Shown here one piece after another: positions 29,875-38,737 of a DNA stretch of 64,000 nt (the first letter of the stretch is position 1; each line of letters begins with the position of its first letter). A program made the position numbers and the translations under genes. Source of the DNA: Tubulanus polymorphus (Eukaryota > Nemertea > Palaeonemertea > Tubulaniformes > Tubulanidae); NCBI RefSeq assembly GCF_964204645.1, contig NC_134030.1, forward strand, positions 8,306,278-8,370,277, read 5' to 3'. The notes beneath the pieces are model-generated. The model was not told where the DNA came from, searched no databases, and saw nothing but the letters and a program-made list of their open reading frames with translations.

Positions 29875-31341
29875 TCACGTCCAGAAATTCCGCTCGAACA
29901 CGGCACCCTCGACTTCTCCGCCGAGCAACGAGCGTTTCACTTTGGCGGCAAAGTCTTCCTTGGGTTCGCAGGACACGATCGGCGAAAGAATGTCGTCCAA
30001 ATTGGGTTGATAGAATAGATACAAAATTCCTTGAACGAGATCTTCTAGCGTGGCGAGCGGTTGCCATTCTTCCAGCACAGAAACGCACACGTTATCTTCG
30101 TCATTGTCGTCGTAAAATGGCAAACAGTTTATGTTCGGGTGGTAGAGTTTAGTCAGACATATGACGCTGGGGACGTTAAACGGATATTTCTCGTCCAAAA
30201 TAATCTGAAATACAAAAGACAAACCAACAAAATCAATATATATATTCGAAAGAAATTCCATTTCAGCCGAGGATGTAAAGTTGTTGAGAGTGTATATATT
30301 CAGGGGTGGATCCAAAGGAAGGGTGCAGGGGTGTGCCTCCCCTTTAAAAGTTCAAGTTGCCCTGAAATATATACATATTACAGGAAAATGAAGAATAATG
30401 TACTGATAGCACAATGTTTAGCTTCATAAGCTTGTTTTCTGTGTTTCTTTTAGGGTGTCCTTTTAATCATATGATATCCCTGATATTTCGAGCAACGTTT
30501 CGGCTATAAAATAAGCCATCATCCTCTACTCAATAACTTGACATCTTTGGCCAGAGCCATCGGAAGGATTTTTTGAAAATTCAATCGCCGGAGATGCGTT
30601 TTGGGGCCATTTCACGGTCTCATTCACAGAAGCATGAGAAGTCGTGTACCAACCACCTAGGAGAACGACGAGCTGCTACGCGGTACAGCGTGCTTTTGAA
30701 AAATTGTTTGTTAAGCGAAAAAGTGGGGCGGCTTTGGCCGCCCCTGCCGCCCCTGTTCCGACGGCCCTGTTGGCTGAGATTATTCAGGGAACATACGTAT
30801 TCATCTTACACGGATATTATGTATCTTCCTATAAAACCTATTATCTCAATCAAAAACAAGTCCTGCATTTGTGTCCAAATACAACTCGAGTTATCAAACT
30901 AAAGTGGATTTAGATTGTACCATAGAACTCAAATCAAATCTGATTTGAGTTCTATGATTGTACACAAAGCACGTGTTATCGAGACGATCTACATAATCGA
31001 TTATTCATAAAATTCATTATTAAGTAGCCTATACAGAGAAATAGCCTCAATATACGTAAATGATATTAATTGTGTCGGGAATATCGGATTCGCACCAATG
31101 GCACGGCCCCCATTTTGTTTCAATTACTTACCTTGAACAAGAATGTTCCACCGTGATAATATCCTCCATTTGGTTTAATTTCTACTTTGAATGTGTCAAT
31201 GCGTCCGTTTTCGAAATCGTGAAATATCTTCGCTTGTTCGTTTGACAAATTGTCAATATTTCTGATTAATTCCATGGTGTCTTTTTGCAGACGATTGTTT
31301 ATCAAATCCAGATGGTTGGTCCCGGCAACTCCCATTTGCAT
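29875..31341 (-). CDS. E2 conjugating enzyme, NEDD8-type (UBE2M/UBE2F-like), diverged
   Basis: Two exons on the minus strand: 31132-31341 (70 codons, ATG near 31341) and 29875-30204 (109 codons plus TGA), both phase 0, giving 179 aa. The UBC fold is complete: RLQKDTMEL helix 1, GGYYHGGTFLF strands, YPFNVPSV, CLTKLYHPNI with the HPN motif, the likely catalytic Cys in NVCVSVLEEWQP, and the C-terminal GG...FER element. E2 enzymes carry ubiquitin or a related modifier as a thioester on that Cys. YHPNI, EEWQP and the final GG-x(6)-FER resemble UBE2M (UBC12), while GYYHGG and CLTK also resemble UBE2F; both conjugate NEDD8 to cullins. The NEDD8-E1-binding N-terminal extension of UBE2M is missing, and an acidic insert (PFYDDNDEDN) precedes the Cys. 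It is therefore probably a divergent paralogue. A retrotransposon begins 233 bp upstream of the ATG. Confidence 0.8.
30300..30900. repeat. Repeat-derived sequence inside the E2 intron
   Basis: The single E2 intron (30205-31131) contains a CAGGGGTGGATCCAAAGGAAG-type GC-rich start, a stem-loop with CAACGTTTCGGCTATAAAATAAGCC, and a short frame (30573-30902) with no recognisable domain. Similar GGGGYGGATCCA words occur at 3828 and 16500. It looks like decayed mobile DNA. Confidence 0.4.
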
Positions 31342-31573: not shown

Positions 31574-31625
31574 ACTATCCACACTGATCATGTGACACTA
31601 GTGACGCGGTCACTTCTTAGTTTGC
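31574..31625 (+). repeat. Split direct repeat A1
   Basis: A 52-bp sequence from ACTATCCACACTGATC to TCTTAGTTTGC, identical by eye to A2 at 38480-38531. It marks the left end of the retrotransposon. Confidence 0.92.
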
Positions 31626-31800
31626 TTTCGAAGCTATCGGACGTGTGTGGTCAGCTGTTTTGTGGTGAGTTTTGTCTCCTGCGTTTGCCGATTTTCTGTG
31701 GTTCCTTTCCGGTAGCATTTGGTATTTTTCTTTGGAACTTTGTTTGTGGTTTCCTCTTTAGTTTTGGTCCCCTTTTGCCTGGTTTGGAGACTTTGGTGTA

Positions 31801-32045
31801 GTCATCTTGGATGAAACACTGGGTTTATTAGTTTTAGTGCAGTCATTTTGGATGAAACACTGGAGTTTATTGATTTTAGTGTAGTCATTTCGGATGAAAC
31901 ACTGGTTTTTATTTATTTTTGGTGCGGTCATTTCGGATGAAACACTGGTTTTGTTAGTTTTAGTGCAGTCATTTAGGATGAAGCACTAGGTTTGTTAATT
32001 TTGGTGCAGTCATTTCGGATGAAACACTGATTTTGATGTTTTGGG
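31801..32045 (+). repeat. Tandem repeat of about 42 bp, six copies, in the element's 5' leader
   Basis: Units start at 31801, 31842, 31884, 31927, 31968 and 32009, each built around GTCATTTCGGATGAAACAC followed by a T-rich spacer. Degenerate further copies (GGATGAAGCACGGG) occur near 32115. The array lies between the left terminal repeat and the first splice donor, so it is probably promoter or leader sequence. A function in transcription or packaging is speculation. Confidence 0.85.
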
Positions 32046-32588
32046 TTATACTGTACCGTGATTTTGGGTTTAAGCACGGGCAGATGGTCTTTTAGATTTT
32101 CTGGGATAAGTGCAGTGTTTTGGATGAAGCACGGGAGATGGATTGATAGTGATTTTATTGAGGCAAAATTCTCGGTCAGGTTAGAAGTACTAGGGTACTT
32201 TGGTACATTTTGACCGTCAATGACATTTAGGTTACAGTGCTACATGCGTGATTGCTTTTGCCTTTATTGGGACGTGGGTAAATACTGTAAGTCACAGTGC
32301 GTGCATTTTGCTAGATTTATTTCATTCATAGGCGCATTTCCAAGGTCTGGATTTGGAATTCTTTTGTGGGATTTCATTGGCTTTTCAAAATTCGGTTTAA
32401 TCTTACTGGGCGTGTAAAGGCAATCTGGTGACGTTTTACCTGGTCCTTGGTCTCGTTTTGTAGTTAGCGGTAGTGTTGGGTTAGCATCAAGTCCTGTTAG
32501 TCAAATCGCTTTTCAGATTTGAGGACAGTTTTGGAGCTCGGTGGTATTATTAGACTTGTTTGACTGTGTATCGTACAGATGAGTTAAG

Positions 32589-32823
32589 GTGAGTTTTTAT
32601 TAGTGTATTACTGTCGTATTAGTTCTTGTTTAATTTAAGATGGTGGCTAAGGAAAAATTACGGCATGTGGCCGAAAATTTAACGTTTTTCTGGTCTGGTC
32701 ACATGTATATATTTTGTTAAACTTTGTCGACGGTTGTTAGGATCAGTTTGCTAATACTTTTAAATTTTATTCCTGGTACGAGGCGGTAGTAATTTTGATG
32801 TTCTTTTCGCTTATCTGTTTCAG
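32589..32823 (+). other. Predicted 5' leader intron of the retrotransposon
   Basis: Donor TTAAG|GTGAGTTT at 32588/32589 and acceptor CTTATCTGTTTCAG at 32823 are both near-consensus. The acceptor lies two bases before the Gag ATG (32826). Such an intron would remove several upstream ATGs from the leader. Confidence 0.6.
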
Positions 32824-32825
32824 AG

Positions 32826-34236
32826 ATGGAACCGGTGGTTTTAAAATCGTCAGACGGTTTGAAAACGGTGGACATCATCCCCATGTTATTAAAATTAAGA
32901 GGGTTAGATTTGAACGTAGATCGGCCTACAGCCTTCGCTAGGTTCGAAAGGCTTAAGCCACTAGAAGCAGCACCGAGGAAGTATGTGGATGATGCGGTAT
33001 TTTCTCTGACTGGTAAAAAGATGAATGATCTGTTAACGCTGGTGGACTGGGAGGAGACGGAAGGTCCGCTGCTAGCGCACCACTTGATAATTTTTGCTAA
33101 CGAGAACGCGAACAAGCTCCCTCAGGTACCAAAGAAAAGGAAGTCTGTGCCCGCACCTAGTACAAGCACGGTCGGTGCGGAGAGTGATGCGGTAACCCCA
33201 GATGGGGTTTCTGAACCGGTGAGTGTTTTTATTTTCTCAGTTTTATATCTGTATTTGTAGCCCCCGGGTTTGGTCGGTAGGCCTGGACTGGGTAGATTTA
33301 TTGGGAAATTAATAGACATTTGTTTAAAACATGTGTAGCTCTGTGCGTTTAAGGTTTATTGCTCTGGGCCTTGCACATACCAGGATTTAGTGGGTACAGA
33401 ATGGGGATCTGTTTTGGTTAAGTTAGAGGATTTTTCGTTTCCTTTACTGGAGGAGAAAGTTTATAGAGATTAGGTTTTTTAAAAGACAGCTTCTGAAAAT
33501 GTAAGACGCAAGATGGAATGTAAAGATAACCCATTAAGATGTAGGTAATGGTATGAAGGAGAAGCATGAAACATTTAGGATGATAGATTTGACTATAGAT
33601 TGTTCGTTAACCGAAATCATGGCGATCTTTTAAACTATTTACTGCGAAGTCATGCTGATTAGTCTATATTTGTATTTATCTCGTGTGTTTCAGGACAAAA
33701 AATTGTTAAAGCGTCTGGAGGAACTCGAGAAGAAGGTTACACATCCAGCTCGTTCAGTAGAGAGCGCTCTGATGCAGGTGAGGGCAGCGCTTCAAAGGCC
33801 GGGCTCTTTCTTTGATCCATACTTCCTTCTCGGTTGTATGGAAGGCTTGGTAGAGGTGGCAGCTGAAACCACAGATCCGAAAAAAGGGTATTTTGATTCT
33901 GTGCTGAAAAGTATCAAGAGAAATATCGATTCTCCAGACTTACCTGCTTTGTGTAGGCGTTTGATTGGCTACCCGGATGATGAAAAAGTGGCATCAGTGG
34001 AGGCAAAATGGGCTAAAAAGCCGCACACAAACAATTATTACCCAACTTACGGCTATTGGGGTGGGTCGGGTGTAGGCAGGGGATATGTTGGGCGCCGAGG
34101 TTACGGTACAAGGAGAGCAGGGAGAAGTTCCAGGGGGAATTGTTTCTTATGCCGCAAAGAGGGTCATTTTGTTCGCGACTGTCCTGAGAATAAGCAACCA
34201 CAAGTGGTAACGAAGACTGAAAGTGAGGTTGTCTAA
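32826..34236 (+). CDS. Retrotransposon Gag-like protein, two exons
   Basis: Exon 32826-33218 (131 codons) and exon 33694-34236 (180 codons plus TAA), joined in phase 0 across an intron with donor GAACCG|GTGAGT and acceptor CGTGTGTTTCAG, give 311 aa. Without splicing the first exon runs into a stop at 33258. The first exon holds a compact helical N-terminal domain and a linker with PKKRKSV, which resembles an SV40-type nuclear localisation signal. The second begins with a coiled coil (KKLLKRLEELEKKV), then a helical domain, a Gly/Tyr/Arg-rich stretch and a CCHC zinc knuckle, C-x2-C-x4-H-x4-C, whose residues map to 34141, 34150, 34165 and 34180. Gag packages the RNA and forms the particle. A phase-0 donor candidate, GTG|GTAACG at 34206/34207, could alternatively join Gag to the next block. 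Confidence 0.8.
33219..33693 (+). other. Predicted intron splitting gag; its donor is a candidate shared donor
   Basis: 475 bp, donor GTGAGTGTTT, acceptor TCGTGTGTTTCAG, phase 0 on both sides. The donor also fits in phase with acceptors at 34482/34483 and 36850/36851, so it could feed three alternative exons (see findings). Confidence 0.65.
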
Positions 34237-34482
34237 ATGAGTTAGAACTTAGAGTTAGATTGAATTTAGTTTTGGATGATACGTAATGTTATATTGTGTT
34301 GTTAAAGATGTTAAACAAGGTTATTTTCTCTCCTTTAAATTGATCATATGTTGGATAATTCATTTTGTTATCGGTTGTTTGTGGTCGGTTGGCTTTGTTG
34401 TCACAGGCTATCTAAGTCTGTTGTCACGGCTTATGTCGTGCTGGCAACGGGGCTGGACTGATGGACCTTAGTGTCTTTTCAG

Positions 34483-36663
34483 GATTTTGTTCCGTTGAAG
34501 ATACCTGTGTGTAAAGACGTGTTTTGGGTTGGTGCTAGAGGTTCATCCGTCCAGTTACCGTTGCCTGAGGTCGTCTCAGCCGAGACCGTTTCGAAATCGG
34601 CGGACAAGTATAACAATTTGACAATTTTTGACCTGCCCCTCAGGGACCCGGAGAATTTCGTCGCAGGTGAACTGAGTCGCCATCTGGAGGAATGGGAATT
34701 TATTCTACGGCAGTCAGAGGATCCGTTGTCAGACACGATTTTATCTTGGGTGCGAGATGGTGTTCATATCCCAGATTTCTTTAAGAGGTTTAAGGGTCAG
34801 TTTAAAGGCAAGACGTATGATTGTGATGCGCCCCCAAAAACGGTGTTCCCGAATTCTGGAAACTGCGAACAATTTGAAGATTTCATTTCTACAACATTAA
34901 AAGGTCGGGTGGCTAATGGATCACTCAAGGTCTGGGGAAAGGTTGGGGTCGATCCACCCCCGCATTTAGTTATGCCCTTGACGGTTGAACCCACGAAACC
35001 CAGAATGTGCCACGACGAACGATTTCTAAATCTATGGATTCGGGACTCGCCTTTCCATTTGGAAACTTTGGTAAACGTACCTCGCATGCTACATAAAAGC
35101 GCGTTTATGACCTCTGTCGATGATAAAAGTGGTTACGACCACATCAGGGTAACACCGGGAAGTGAGGTGTATTTGGGAATCAGCTGGAAAGGTTGGTATT
35201 ACGTTTACACCGTTATTCCTTTTGGTTTTAAGGCCTCGGCCTATATATACCAGAACACTGGCTTGGTTGCAACGGGTTACCTTCGAGACCTAGGAGTACA
35301 GATAACTCAATACATTGATGACCGTTTAAATGGGGAGCTTTTAAGTTCCTCGGCTAGGGGTTTAGAATCCATCACAAAGGCTAGGTTAGCTCTATATATG
35401 ACTGCCCAAGTTTTAACAAGACTAGGGTATTTTCTAGGCCTCCATAAATGCGTCCTGGAACCGTGTCAGTTATTAAAGCATTTAGGCTTATTTGTTAACA
35501 CTATAGAGGAACGTTTTGAGATCCCAAATGATAAGGTGGTAAAATTTGCCATTTTAAGGGACAATATTTTATCGTCCGAATTCGTTAACATTAAAACGAT
35601 TCAGCGGTTTGTGGGTAAGATCATATCCTTCTCGCTGGTTGTACCAGCTGCGAAGCTTTATACAAGGGAGTCAAACTTAGCTATTTCTAAGGCATTCAGA
35701 AACTCGAGACTCATTAGGGTTGAGGGCAATCTCAGAACTGAGATAGAGTACTGGAAGATAATTGAATGTTTGCCAAGGGTGGTAAGGTGGCGCCAAGAGT
35801 GGCATGTCAGAATTCAGATGTATACGGACGCATCCTCTTATAGATGGGGTGGGATAGTCACGATTGGTGAGCAGAGGTTTGAGCCCTCCGATTATTGGCC
35901 ACAGGAGCTGGTACAAAAACCCATTGTAATAAAGGAAACCTTGGCACTTAAAAACGTGTTAATGGTGGTTTCTGATAAAATTAGAGACAGTAGAGTAGAC
36001 GCTTTTGTAGATAATAAAACTATGATTGCGGCATGGGTTGGTGAAGGTTCCAAATCACATGATCTGTCAGAAGCAATTAAGCTTTTGTTTGAACTAACAG
36101 CAGAACAAAATGTGTTGTTGAAATTGCATTATGTACCGTCAAAAGAGAATCTAGCAGACGCTCCCTCGCGAATTTTGCGAAAATCGGAATGTATGTTATC
36201 TCCGCGTATATGGCAGCACGTGCAACGTGAATATGGGGGTGAAAACGGACACTCGGTTGATTTGATGGCCCTTGATTCGAACGTAATGGTAGATTTGTCA
36301 GGCTCTCCACTACGACATTTTACGCCAACGCCATCTACTGATTCTAGTGGTGTAGATCTGTTCGCACAAAATCTATGCGACGAGGTTAATCCATATGTGT
36401 TTCCGCCAATTTCTAAGATACCGGCGGTTTTACGATTCTTGGCAGACGCAGTCAAAGAAGCATCTATCGTCATTCCAGAAATCTTTCCGAGGCCATTCTG
36501 GTGGCCTTTGGTAACCTCTCGTGCATCCAAACGTCGCCTGCTTGGCAAAAAGGGAGATGTGGGTGTTTTGAAATATCCGACTAAAAAAGGTTTTGTGGAG
36601 GATACAGTAGGCATACCGTGGGATCTGTTTGTTTATAGGATAGATTTTGATAGATTAGATTGA
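34483..36663 (+). CDS. Retrotransposon reverse transcriptase / RNase H
   Basis: An open block of 726 codons starting right after the acceptor GTGTCTTTTCAG (34482), in phase 0. No ATG opens it; the first in-frame ATGs are deep inside the RT domain, so a spliced 5' exon is needed. RT motifs include SVDDKSGYDHI (about residue 212), PFGFKASAYIYQ and the catalytic YIDD at 35311-35322 (residue about 277). RNase H follows with YTDASSYRWGG (from 35821), VDNKTMIAAW and YVPSKENLADAPSR, a pattern typical of DIRS/Ngaro-type elements. The last 130 residues (DLMALDSN, GVDLFAQN, FPPISKIPAVLRF) match the extra C-terminal region often found after RNase H in this order of elements, whose role is unclear. No frameshift or stop is seen, so the protein could be active. 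Confidence 0.9.
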   Translation, partial: DFVPLKIPVCKDVFWVGARGSSVQLPLPEVVSAETVSKSADKYNNLTIFDLPLRDPENFVAGELSRHLEEWEFILRQSEDPLSDTILSWVRDGVHIPDFFKRFKGQFKGKTYDCDAPPKTVFPNSGNCEQFEDFISTTLKGRVANGSLKVWGKVGVDPPPHLVMPLTVEPTKPRMCHDERFLNLWIRDSPFHLETLVNVPRMLHKSAFMTSVDDKSGYDHIRVTPGSEVYLGISWKGWYYVYTVIPFGFKASAYIYQNTGLVATGYLRDLGVQITQYIDDRLNGELLSSSARGLESITKARLALYMTAQVLTRLGYFLGLHKCVLEPCQLLKHLGLFVNTIEERFEIPNDKVVKFAILRDNILSSEFVNIKTIQRFVGKIISFSLVVPAAKLYTRESNLAISKAFRNSRLIRVEGNLRTEIEYWKIIECLPRVVRWRQEWHVRIQMYTDASSYRWGGIVTIGEQRFEPSDYWPQELVQKPIVIKETLALKNVLMVVSDKIRDSRVDAFVDNKTMIAAWVGEGSKSHDLSEAIKLLFELTAEQNVLLKLHYVPSKENLADAPSRILRKSECMLSPRIWQHVQREYGGENGHSVDLMALDSNVMVDLSGSPLRHFTPTPSTDSSGVDLFAQNLCDEVNPYVFPPISKIPAVLRFLADAVKEASIVIPEIFPRPFWWPLVTSRASKRRLLGKKGDVGVLKYPTKKGFVEDTVGIPWDLFVYRIDFDRLD

Positions 36664-36850
36664 AAGATTAAATTGACATGTTTTCCTGAGCGATAACATG
36701 GTGTTGCGTAACGGTGGTCTTTATTTTCTACTCTGATCTATGCACGGTAAAATCCGGATGCATAACTCTGCTTTTACGTTAATAAACGTTTTGTCTTTTC
36801 TGATATACCTCGTTTATTATGGTTCTTTTAAGATCTGTCATATTTTACAG

Positions 36851-38190
36851 GATCTGTCTCTGCATCACGAGAACCATTGTGCGGACTGTGGACATCGCTC
36901 GCGACAGCACTCAAATTTCTGCTACAATTGTGGTTCAGAGTTAAGCAATGCGGATGGCGAGAACGGTACATTGCTAGCCTTACCATTAAAAGATTTGGAT
37001 GCCCGGTTAAATTCTATGTCAGTGAGTGAGCGCAACTCTGTTTATGGCCGAAAGAAGTCAAAACTGGAAGAAGATTTGGTCTTGTTCCTCAGGTCACTGC
37101 GCCCATCGAGATCCTTGTTGACGGCATCACCTAGGGATATCTGTAGGTTCATGGTATTCAGGGATGCTCGGGGTAAAACAGTAGTACACTCTTTAACCTG
37201 TCCGGTACGAGGTTGGAAAGCAGTCTCGAAGGCCTCACCAAGGACCGGTGGTTGTTTATGCCCCAAAAGACTGGCAGCCGGAACGGTCGATTCCTATCTG
37301 GGTCAGATAAGGGCAATATTTAACTCGATTGGTAAAATTGGCTGTTGGCATCCCGAGCGCGGAACTGGGAATCCTACCATATCAGAAGAGGTAAAACAAT
37401 ACCTGAGAGTGACTAAGAAGGAGCAATCGGTGGCTATGATCACCCCTAAACAAGCCGTCCCAATGTACCTTAGCAAATTGACGGCAATGATTCTCTCTAT
37501 TGATAAACGCTTGGCTGTCCCAGATTTACCCGCGGTAACGGAGTATATTTTAGCAAGGGACCAGGCTTTCTTCAAACTTGATTTTCTAACAGGACATAGG
37601 GCGGCAGACTTAGGTCGGTTTTTGACAGATGGGATCTCTCAGAGTGACGATGGAAGGGTAATCATTTTAAATCTAACGTTCGGGAAAACACTGCGGGATG
37701 GTTCGGTTTTGACATCCGTAGTTACTCGTTTTAACAACCCGGTTCTGTGCCCGGTTTTGGCGATTGAAAGGTATTTTGCTGTTGTAAAGGCGCTTGGAGT
37801 TGACCTTGGGGGGGGGGTTACTTATTCCGGATAACGAATAAAGAGGGCGCTATCGTTAATAACGGACTCGACTCGAATGCGGTGGGAAGCCGTTTGAAAA
37901 CTTACCTAAAAGAAATTTGTATGTATGACGGTGAGACCCCGCATAGTTTTAGGGTTGGATGCTCCGTTATGTTGGCTTCTTTGGGCCATACATCTAAAGA
38001 GGTGACTTCTTATATTGGTTGGAAGCATCAGTCCATGGCAAAGCATTACACCAAACATGCTTGTGTGATGCAGGGTAAAGTCTCTGACTCTCTCGGTCAG
38101 GCTATGGGACAGTTAACTGATAAAAGTGTAGAATCATATCGCCTGAATAATGCTACAAGCGGGTTTAAACCAATGTTTTCATCCATGTAG
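36851..38190 (+). pseudogene. Retrotransposon tyrosine recombinase, frame broken at a G10 run
   Basis: Begins after acceptor CATATTTTACAG (36850) in phase 0. A zinc-ribbon-like motif, C-x2-C-x10-C-x2-C, has its Cys codons at 36878, 36887, 36920 and 36929. A SAM-like helical region follows, then the catalytic core. The first Arg is in GHRAADL (codon at 37598). The second half carries HSFR (37942-37953), GWKHQ and the nucleophile Tyr in KHYTKH (codon at 38047), ending at a stop at 38188. The two halves are in different frames: the first runs to a stop at 37834, the second is open from 37804. The switch falls in ten consecutive G's at 37808-37817. This may be a real mutation, a sequencing error or programmed slippage. 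Tyrosine recombinases insert the circular cDNA in this class. An upstream ATG at 36740 exists but the encoded leader is hydrophobic intron-like sequence. Confidence 0.85.
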
Positions 38191-38413
38191 GTTCTACGTA
38201 CGCCAATTTATATCGATAAGAAACTAGACGCTAATACGAATTTTGTATATTAATATACCCGATTTCTAAGGCGGGTCTAAATAAATCGACTGCGGATGCA
38301 TATTCTGTCTTCTGATTTTTGGCCTCGTTTCACTCGGCCTAGTATAGTTGGGGTTTGGGTGTAGTTGTGGAAAGGTTTTTAGTATTTGTTGTGGTTATCA
38401 GTAAGGGGTTGGG

Positions 38414-38483
38414 TCGTTTTTTATCCCCAATCACTACATAACCGCGGAACGAGAAACCACCGATCAGTGTGGATATTATACTA
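38414..38483 (+). repeat. Split direct repeat B1
   Basis: 70 bp from TCGTTTTTTATCCCCAATC to GTGTGGATATTATACTA, identical by eye to B2 at 38668-38737. It overlaps the start of A2 by four bases (ACTA). Confidence 0.92.
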
Positions 38484-38531
38484 TCCACACTGATCATGTG
38501 ACACTAGTGACGCGGTCACTTCTTAGTTTGC
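38480..38531 (+). repeat. Split direct repeat A2
   Basis: 52 bp identical by eye to A1 at 31574-31625. Together with B1 it forms the internal copy of the joined element ends. Confidence 0.92.
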
Positions 38532-38667
38532 GGAAGATGGGGAGTCGAGTGTGACAGGTGTGCCTTGTACAGTGGAGGGAATGGGCCAATGAAATACAGG
38601 ATGGGTTAAGATATTTAAAAAAAAAAAAAAAAAAATACCCAGCGTATGTGGCTACTTGTTCCGGGTT

Positions 38668-38737
38668 TCGTTTTTTATCCCCAATCACTACATAACCGCG
38701 GAACGAGAAACCACCGATCAGTGTGGATATTATACTA
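38668..38737 (+). repeat. Split direct repeat B2, right end of the retrotransposon
   Basis: Identical by eye to B1; beyond ATTATACTA the sequence (AGCGCTTTAG) differs from that after B1, which fixes the element's right end. A poly(A) run of about 18 bases lies in the 136-bp spacer between A2 and B2. Confidence 0.92.

Follow-up and report, generated by a model that had tools for sequence, protein, structure and literature searches.

The retrotransposon and its copies

The window analysed here is a stretch of 64,000 nucleotides of Tubulanus polymorphus DNA on contig C6 of a 267.8-Mb genome. Its forward strand contains, at 31574-38737, an element that is, on sequence grounds, a tyrosine-recombinase retrotransposon of the PAT (split-direct-repeat) type with an ALOG domain in its recombinase. 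The element is bounded by two identical pairs of split direct repeats, all on the forward strand, in the A1 ... B1A2 ... B2 order expected of PAT elements. The 52-bp repeat A1 (31574-31625) forms the 5' end and recurs internally as A2 (38480-38531), and the 70-bp internal repeat B1 (38414-38483) recurs as the 3' terminal repeat B2 (38668-38737). Where B1 and A2 adjoin, an inverted repeat (38441-38516) surrounds a short TTATAC-like spacer, an arrangement with the appearance of a tyrosine-recombinase crossover site. Inverted arms around this recombination site are short only and 71-72% complementary. The inverted terminal repeats and internal complementary regions of DIRS1-like elements were not found, the termini being split direct repeats.

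The two enzymes expected of a PAT element are also present, as a tyrosine recombinase catalytic domain (Phage_integrase match) and a reverse transcriptase (RT; RVT_1 match). The ALOG-recombinase class is indicated by matches to ALOG_dom (E 5.8e-20) and to the zinc ribbon DZR (2.7e-4, below its curated cut-off). PAT elements carry a methyltransferase-like domain between RNase H and the recombinase, which Ngaro elements lack; here the RNase H part is followed by ~150 conserved C-terminal residues, for which Pfam gave no match. The split direct repeats are also compatible with Ngaro, and by its repeats the element would be classed as PAT-type rather than clearly Ngaro.

At least eight near-identical copies occur in the genome, with 98-100% identity in the RT block (over 2.1 kb) and 95-100% in the leader. 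The element is a young retrotransposon, in a genome of animal type. A search of viral contigs for its relatives found none. One copy (L016/L017, C3:16456087-16459153) has an insertion of ~2.7 kb within the leader exon, and the leader pieces overlap by 18 bp, resembling a target-site duplication. Copies L007 and L008 (C6:12.37-12.38 Mb) stand in opposite orientation ~11 kb apart with identical RT disruptions, which suggests a segmental inverted duplication and not two insertions. Also in the window, a minus-strand open reading frame (29875-30351) has, by eye, a likeness to the ubiquitin-conjugating (E2) fold and is probably a host exon.

Coding blocks

All coding blocks lie on the forward strand. 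The 5' untranslated region contains tandem repeats of ~42 bp (31792-32028); the relatives L075 (C1b) and L077 (C7) have different tandem arrays at the same place. The N-terminal exon of Gag, here called the leader, comprises 131 codons from the ATG at 32826 to 33218, as had been predicted, and ends at a phase-0 GTGAGT donor. It has homologues in relatives, most of which also share its basic KRK motif, a conceivable nuclear localization signal. An AlphaFold model of the leader on its own (pLDDT 46) gave no useful information. The rest of Gag (33694-34233) consists of a coiled coil, a next helical part and a CCHC zinc knuckle (zf-CCHC match).

The RT-RNase H block (34483-36660) has 726 codons, an RVT_1 match and a weak PDB match to Ty3 RT. 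The predicted lack of an initiating ATG was borne out, as no in-frame ATG occurs before the conserved block, which starts at 34525, or for 149 codons after that start. The recombinase block (36851-38187) contains the zinc ribbon, the ALOG domain and the catalytic domain. Its in-frame ATGs at 36740 and 36758 precede the acceptor, in what had been described as intron-like sequence, and the next are found only within the conserved part. The recombinase frame of the window copy is broken near 37800-37834; other copies retain an open frame of 483 codons, and five copies keep an open RT frame of 733 codons.

Splice sites in the element

Splice sites precede or interrupt every coding block (a slash marks the exon boundary below). 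The 5' untranslated region has an intron at 32589-32823, running from AAG/GTGAGT at 32588 to TTTCAG at 32823 (TGTTTCAG; extended acceptor CTGTTTCAG), three nucleotides before the leader ATG. A second intron, inside Gag (33219-33693), extends from donor D1, CCG/GTGAGT at 33218, to acceptor A1, likewise TGTTTCAG, which reads GTGTTTCAG/GAC and opens the exon at 33694. Acceptor A2 (34481-34482), CTTTTCAG/GAT, opens the RT exon at 34483, and acceptor A3 (36849-36850), TTTTACAG/GAT, opens the recombinase exon at 36851. Each of the three acceptors is in phase 0 with its open reading frame, in agreement with the original prediction. A further phase-0 donor, D2, which the original prediction had overlooked, reads CAG/GTGAGG at 33777-33778 inside Gag and is a candidate common donor for the RT and recombinase blocks.

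All splice sites are intact in eight of eight copies. The sole variation at D1 is GTAAGT for GTGAGT in one copy, and an 80-nt probe across D2 was 100% identical in all of them. With a generic, vertebrate-like scoring matrix, the donor of the 5' untranslated intron was the strongest of the 5' region (8.4), and D2 scored 7.4 against 6.4 for D1. The aspartate codon that follows each acceptor in the window, GAC or GAT, had been taken as a shared feature; it is real there, but a conserved Asp first codon was rejected since the blocks of relatives begin with Gly, Ser, Asn, Val and others.

Acceptors in diverged relatives

Protein searches of the same genome identified at least some 14 anciently diverged relatives, mostly with 40-58% protein identity and mostly decayed. 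In one of them (L028/L042, C2:10841585-10848863), the leader, Gag end and RT start are partly duplicated inside a single element. In all eight loci where its start is readable (the window and seven relatives), the RT block begins at a phase-0 YAG acceptor rich in pyrimidines, and so does the recombinase block in all 12 of its readable loci (the window and 11 relatives); in C2a and C5b, which carry frameshifts, the recombinase phase was assigned by eye. The recombinase acceptor is the top-scoring acceptor of its interval in every readable locus. The RT acceptor is one of the two or three highest-scoring sites in all loci but the decayed C1a, where it was judged by eye as the automatic frame was off. 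C7, C2a and C1a each have, 29 nt before the RT acceptor, a higher-scoring acceptor that is out of phase.

No conserved start codon is found at the start of either block across the relatives. In-frame ATGs before the block are missing in most of them and differ in position where present. Relatives with an ATG-opened RT frame and no acceptors, named beforehand as the case that would speak against splicing, were not encountered among the eight RT loci. These recurrent phase-0 acceptors are difficult to account for if the two blocks are not joined to a phase-0 donor further upstream. Splicing into the RT and recombinase blocks from a phase-0 donor in Gag is therefore strongly supported by the comparison of these loci, and such dependence would give both enzymes an N-terminal part in common with Gag.

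The choice of donor

The original prediction assigned the donor at 33218 (D1) to all three acceptors. Its premise of an upstream phase-0 donor for RT and recombinase is supported, and the readable related copies and families have kept both acceptors and their phase; D1 as that donor is not supported, since it is missing from C1b, C4, C7 and C1a. D1 opens the intron inside Gag; its equivalents, all in phase 0, were found in C3a (GAG/GTAGGC), C6 (AAG/GTGGGT) and C10 (AAG/GTATGG). C1b, C4, C7 and C1a have no interruption between leader and Gag at this place; their intron is found earlier in the leader instead, after LT(G), in phase 1, so that it cannot feed phase-0 acceptors. Every relative whose leader region can be read has an intron in Gag, at one of two different positions.

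D2, in contrast, is a phase-0 donor in six loci (the window, C3a, C1b, C4, C7 and C1a), where it reads CAG or AAG followed by GTRAGR, or by GTAAAT in C1a. The six hexamers (GTGAGG, GTGAGG, GTGAGA, GTAAGG, GTAAGA and GTAAAT) vary only as donors tolerate. In C1b, C4 and C7, D2 is the only donor of the Gag region scoring at least 3. Its preservation exceeds what codon choice would give: synonymous recoding attains the observed score with a probability of 0.06-0.14 per family. The product over all six is 9e-7; ~1e-4 over the four well-separated families is the fairer value because of shared ancestry. In C6 and C10, a donor is absent at the D2 position and a phase-0 donor exists at the leader end only, so any splicing in this branch would have to start from the leader-end donor.

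For the window, D2 is favoured because D1 is already paired with acceptor A1 and the retention of D2 would otherwise be without a reason. D1 is, on this evidence, probably not the key donor. The N-terminus defined by D2 consists of the 131 leader residues and 28 more and ends shortly after the coiled-coil-like stretch. Gag, RT and recombinase thus probably share ~159 residues, comprising the N-terminal domain, the KRK motif and the coiled coil.

A Y-shaped RNA element

The intron upstream of the RT acceptor contains a sequence (34386-34461, forward strand) that folds into a stem with two hairpins. In an alignment of six families, 92% of cells were paired, compared with 35-52% when the alignment was slid, and seven pairs were changed on both sides. 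A model built from the six families matched the expected place in their copies and also an older relative, L018 (61.5 bits). It matched C5a and C3a independently, with weak scores. A search of Rfam with the element gave no match. The position of the element varies, and in C3a it lies within the Gag intron, 25 nt past D1. It is intronic wherever the anatomy is readable, which suggests a mark of unspliced RNA. Such a mark would be carried by unspliced RNA and be absent from spliced RT or recombinase messages, and may serve in export or packaging.

Proposed expression and its alternatives

It is proposed, with a probability of roughly 0.6, that the element expresses its genes by spliceosomal alternative splicing in which D2 is joined to A2 or A3. 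The splice sites, their phases and their conservation are read directly in the DNA; from these we infer that the sites are used, and how. Removal of the 5' untranslated intron and the D1-A1 intron from the primary transcript would yield the Gag mRNA. In a fraction of transcripts, D2 (33777/33778) would instead be joined in phase 0 to A2 (34483) or A3 (36851), giving an RT-RNase H or a recombinase whose N-terminus is formed by the first ~159 Gag residues. This shared part would provide the start codon for both enzymes and could bring both into Gag particles, as a Gag-Pol fusion does elsewhere.

Since the introns are kept in all copies, the genome must be the fully unspliced RNA. This RNA cannot make Gag, because its leader frame meets a stop at 33258-33260, inside the intron. 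Genomic retrocopies with a D2-A2, D1-A2, D2-A3 or D1-A1 junction were absent at up to three mismatches, which is weak counter-evidence to splicing. The relative L018, whose match begins at the RT acceptor, was considered as a spliced copy and rejected: it is an internally deleted copy, ~86% identical over the Gag-RT segment. A broader reading, that in a lineage of tyrosine-recombinase retrotransposons all enzymes are Gag fusions made through a donor within Gag and the genomic RNA, from which Gag cannot be translated, is marked by the Y-shaped RNA, is put forward tentatively, at somewhat less than even odds.

Joining of D1 to A1, A2 or A3, so that the three proteins would share only the 131-residue leader, is unlikely but the most serious alternative. 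D1 is strong and in phase 0 in all copies, even where one base has changed, and C6 and C10 have their only phase-0 donor at the leader end; these points also count against D2, whose use is further burdened by the stronger out-of-phase acceptors of C7, C2a and C1a, by the generic scoring matrix and by the decay of most relatives. However, the RT and recombinase acceptors of C1b, C4, C7 and C1a are in phase 0 although these families have no such donor and their other Gag intron is in phase 1, and the conservation of D2 would be left unexplained. A serial fusion, in which donors at the Gag end (34206) and the RT end (36606) would yield one long Gag-RT-recombinase protein, had been offered as the alternative to a common donor and is scarcely credible. 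Weak phase-0 GT sites do exist at these places in the window, but neither reached its scan threshold (3 for the Gag end, 4 for the RT end), one copy has GTTACG at the Gag-end site, and C7, C2a, C1b, C1a and C10 have no conserved donor near the Gag or RT ends.

Alternatively, RT and recombinase could be translated internally, without splicing into either block, with the Y-shaped RNA as a ribosome entry site for RT. A conserved structured RNA shortly upstream of RT would fit, but the recombinase, which likewise lacks an ATG, showed no comparable structure ahead of it, the structure of C3a precedes the second exon of Gag and not RT, and the presence of acceptor motifs wherever a block begins would go unexplained; this reading is very improbable. 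Hardly better placed is the view that the splice motifs are ancestral and now decorate decaying copies, the window element being no longer expressed. The broken recombinase frame of the window and the decay of other families agree with it, yet five copies retain the open 733-codon RT and several an open recombinase at 97-100% identity, which implies recent movement and makes this view improbable. Alternative splicing from D2 is thus the preferred reading.

Relation to known systems

Most retroelements proportion Gag and Pol by frameshifting, readthrough or a single polyprotein. If the proposed mechanism is true, alternative splicing replaces these devices and the genomic RNA is set apart from all messages, which would account, in this group, for the delivery of the enzymes to the particle and for the survival of introns through retrotransposition. 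The Y-shaped RNA would be a candidate element for export or packaging, and annotation of DIRS-type elements by open reading frames would miss the shared N-terminus.

ALOG-domain DIRS-type retroposons were reported from cnidarians, molluscs, an echinoderm, amphioxus and Ectocarpus (Iyer and Aravind, 2012; PMC3537659). The element shares with them a recombinase in which a zinc ribbon at the N-terminus is combined with an ALOG and a catalytic domain, as well as an upstream zinc-knuckle Gag and RT-RNase H. The metazoan copies were called inactive in that study and introns were not mentioned, whereas here open frames are present and splice sites organize all of the reading frames. With PAT and the echinoderm form of Pat1-like elements (PMC4157794; PMC3266345), the element has in common the A1...B1A2...B2 split direct repeats, whose internal pair is placed after a forward recombinase, and a CCHC Gag. 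Introns in DIRS or PAT elements were not mentioned in the open-access literature checked, including these two papers.

In murine leukaemia virus, a donor in gag joins the N-terminus of Gag in frame to a piece of pol, giving the SD' RNA and P50 (PMC10496198). That product is an accessory protein of an unrelated element, whereas here the products would be the essential RT and recombinase. The spliced Gag mRNAs of copia and BARE1 separate the RNA pools for translation and replication (PMC3735527); splicing favours Gag in those elements, whereas in the element described here it would create the enzymes.
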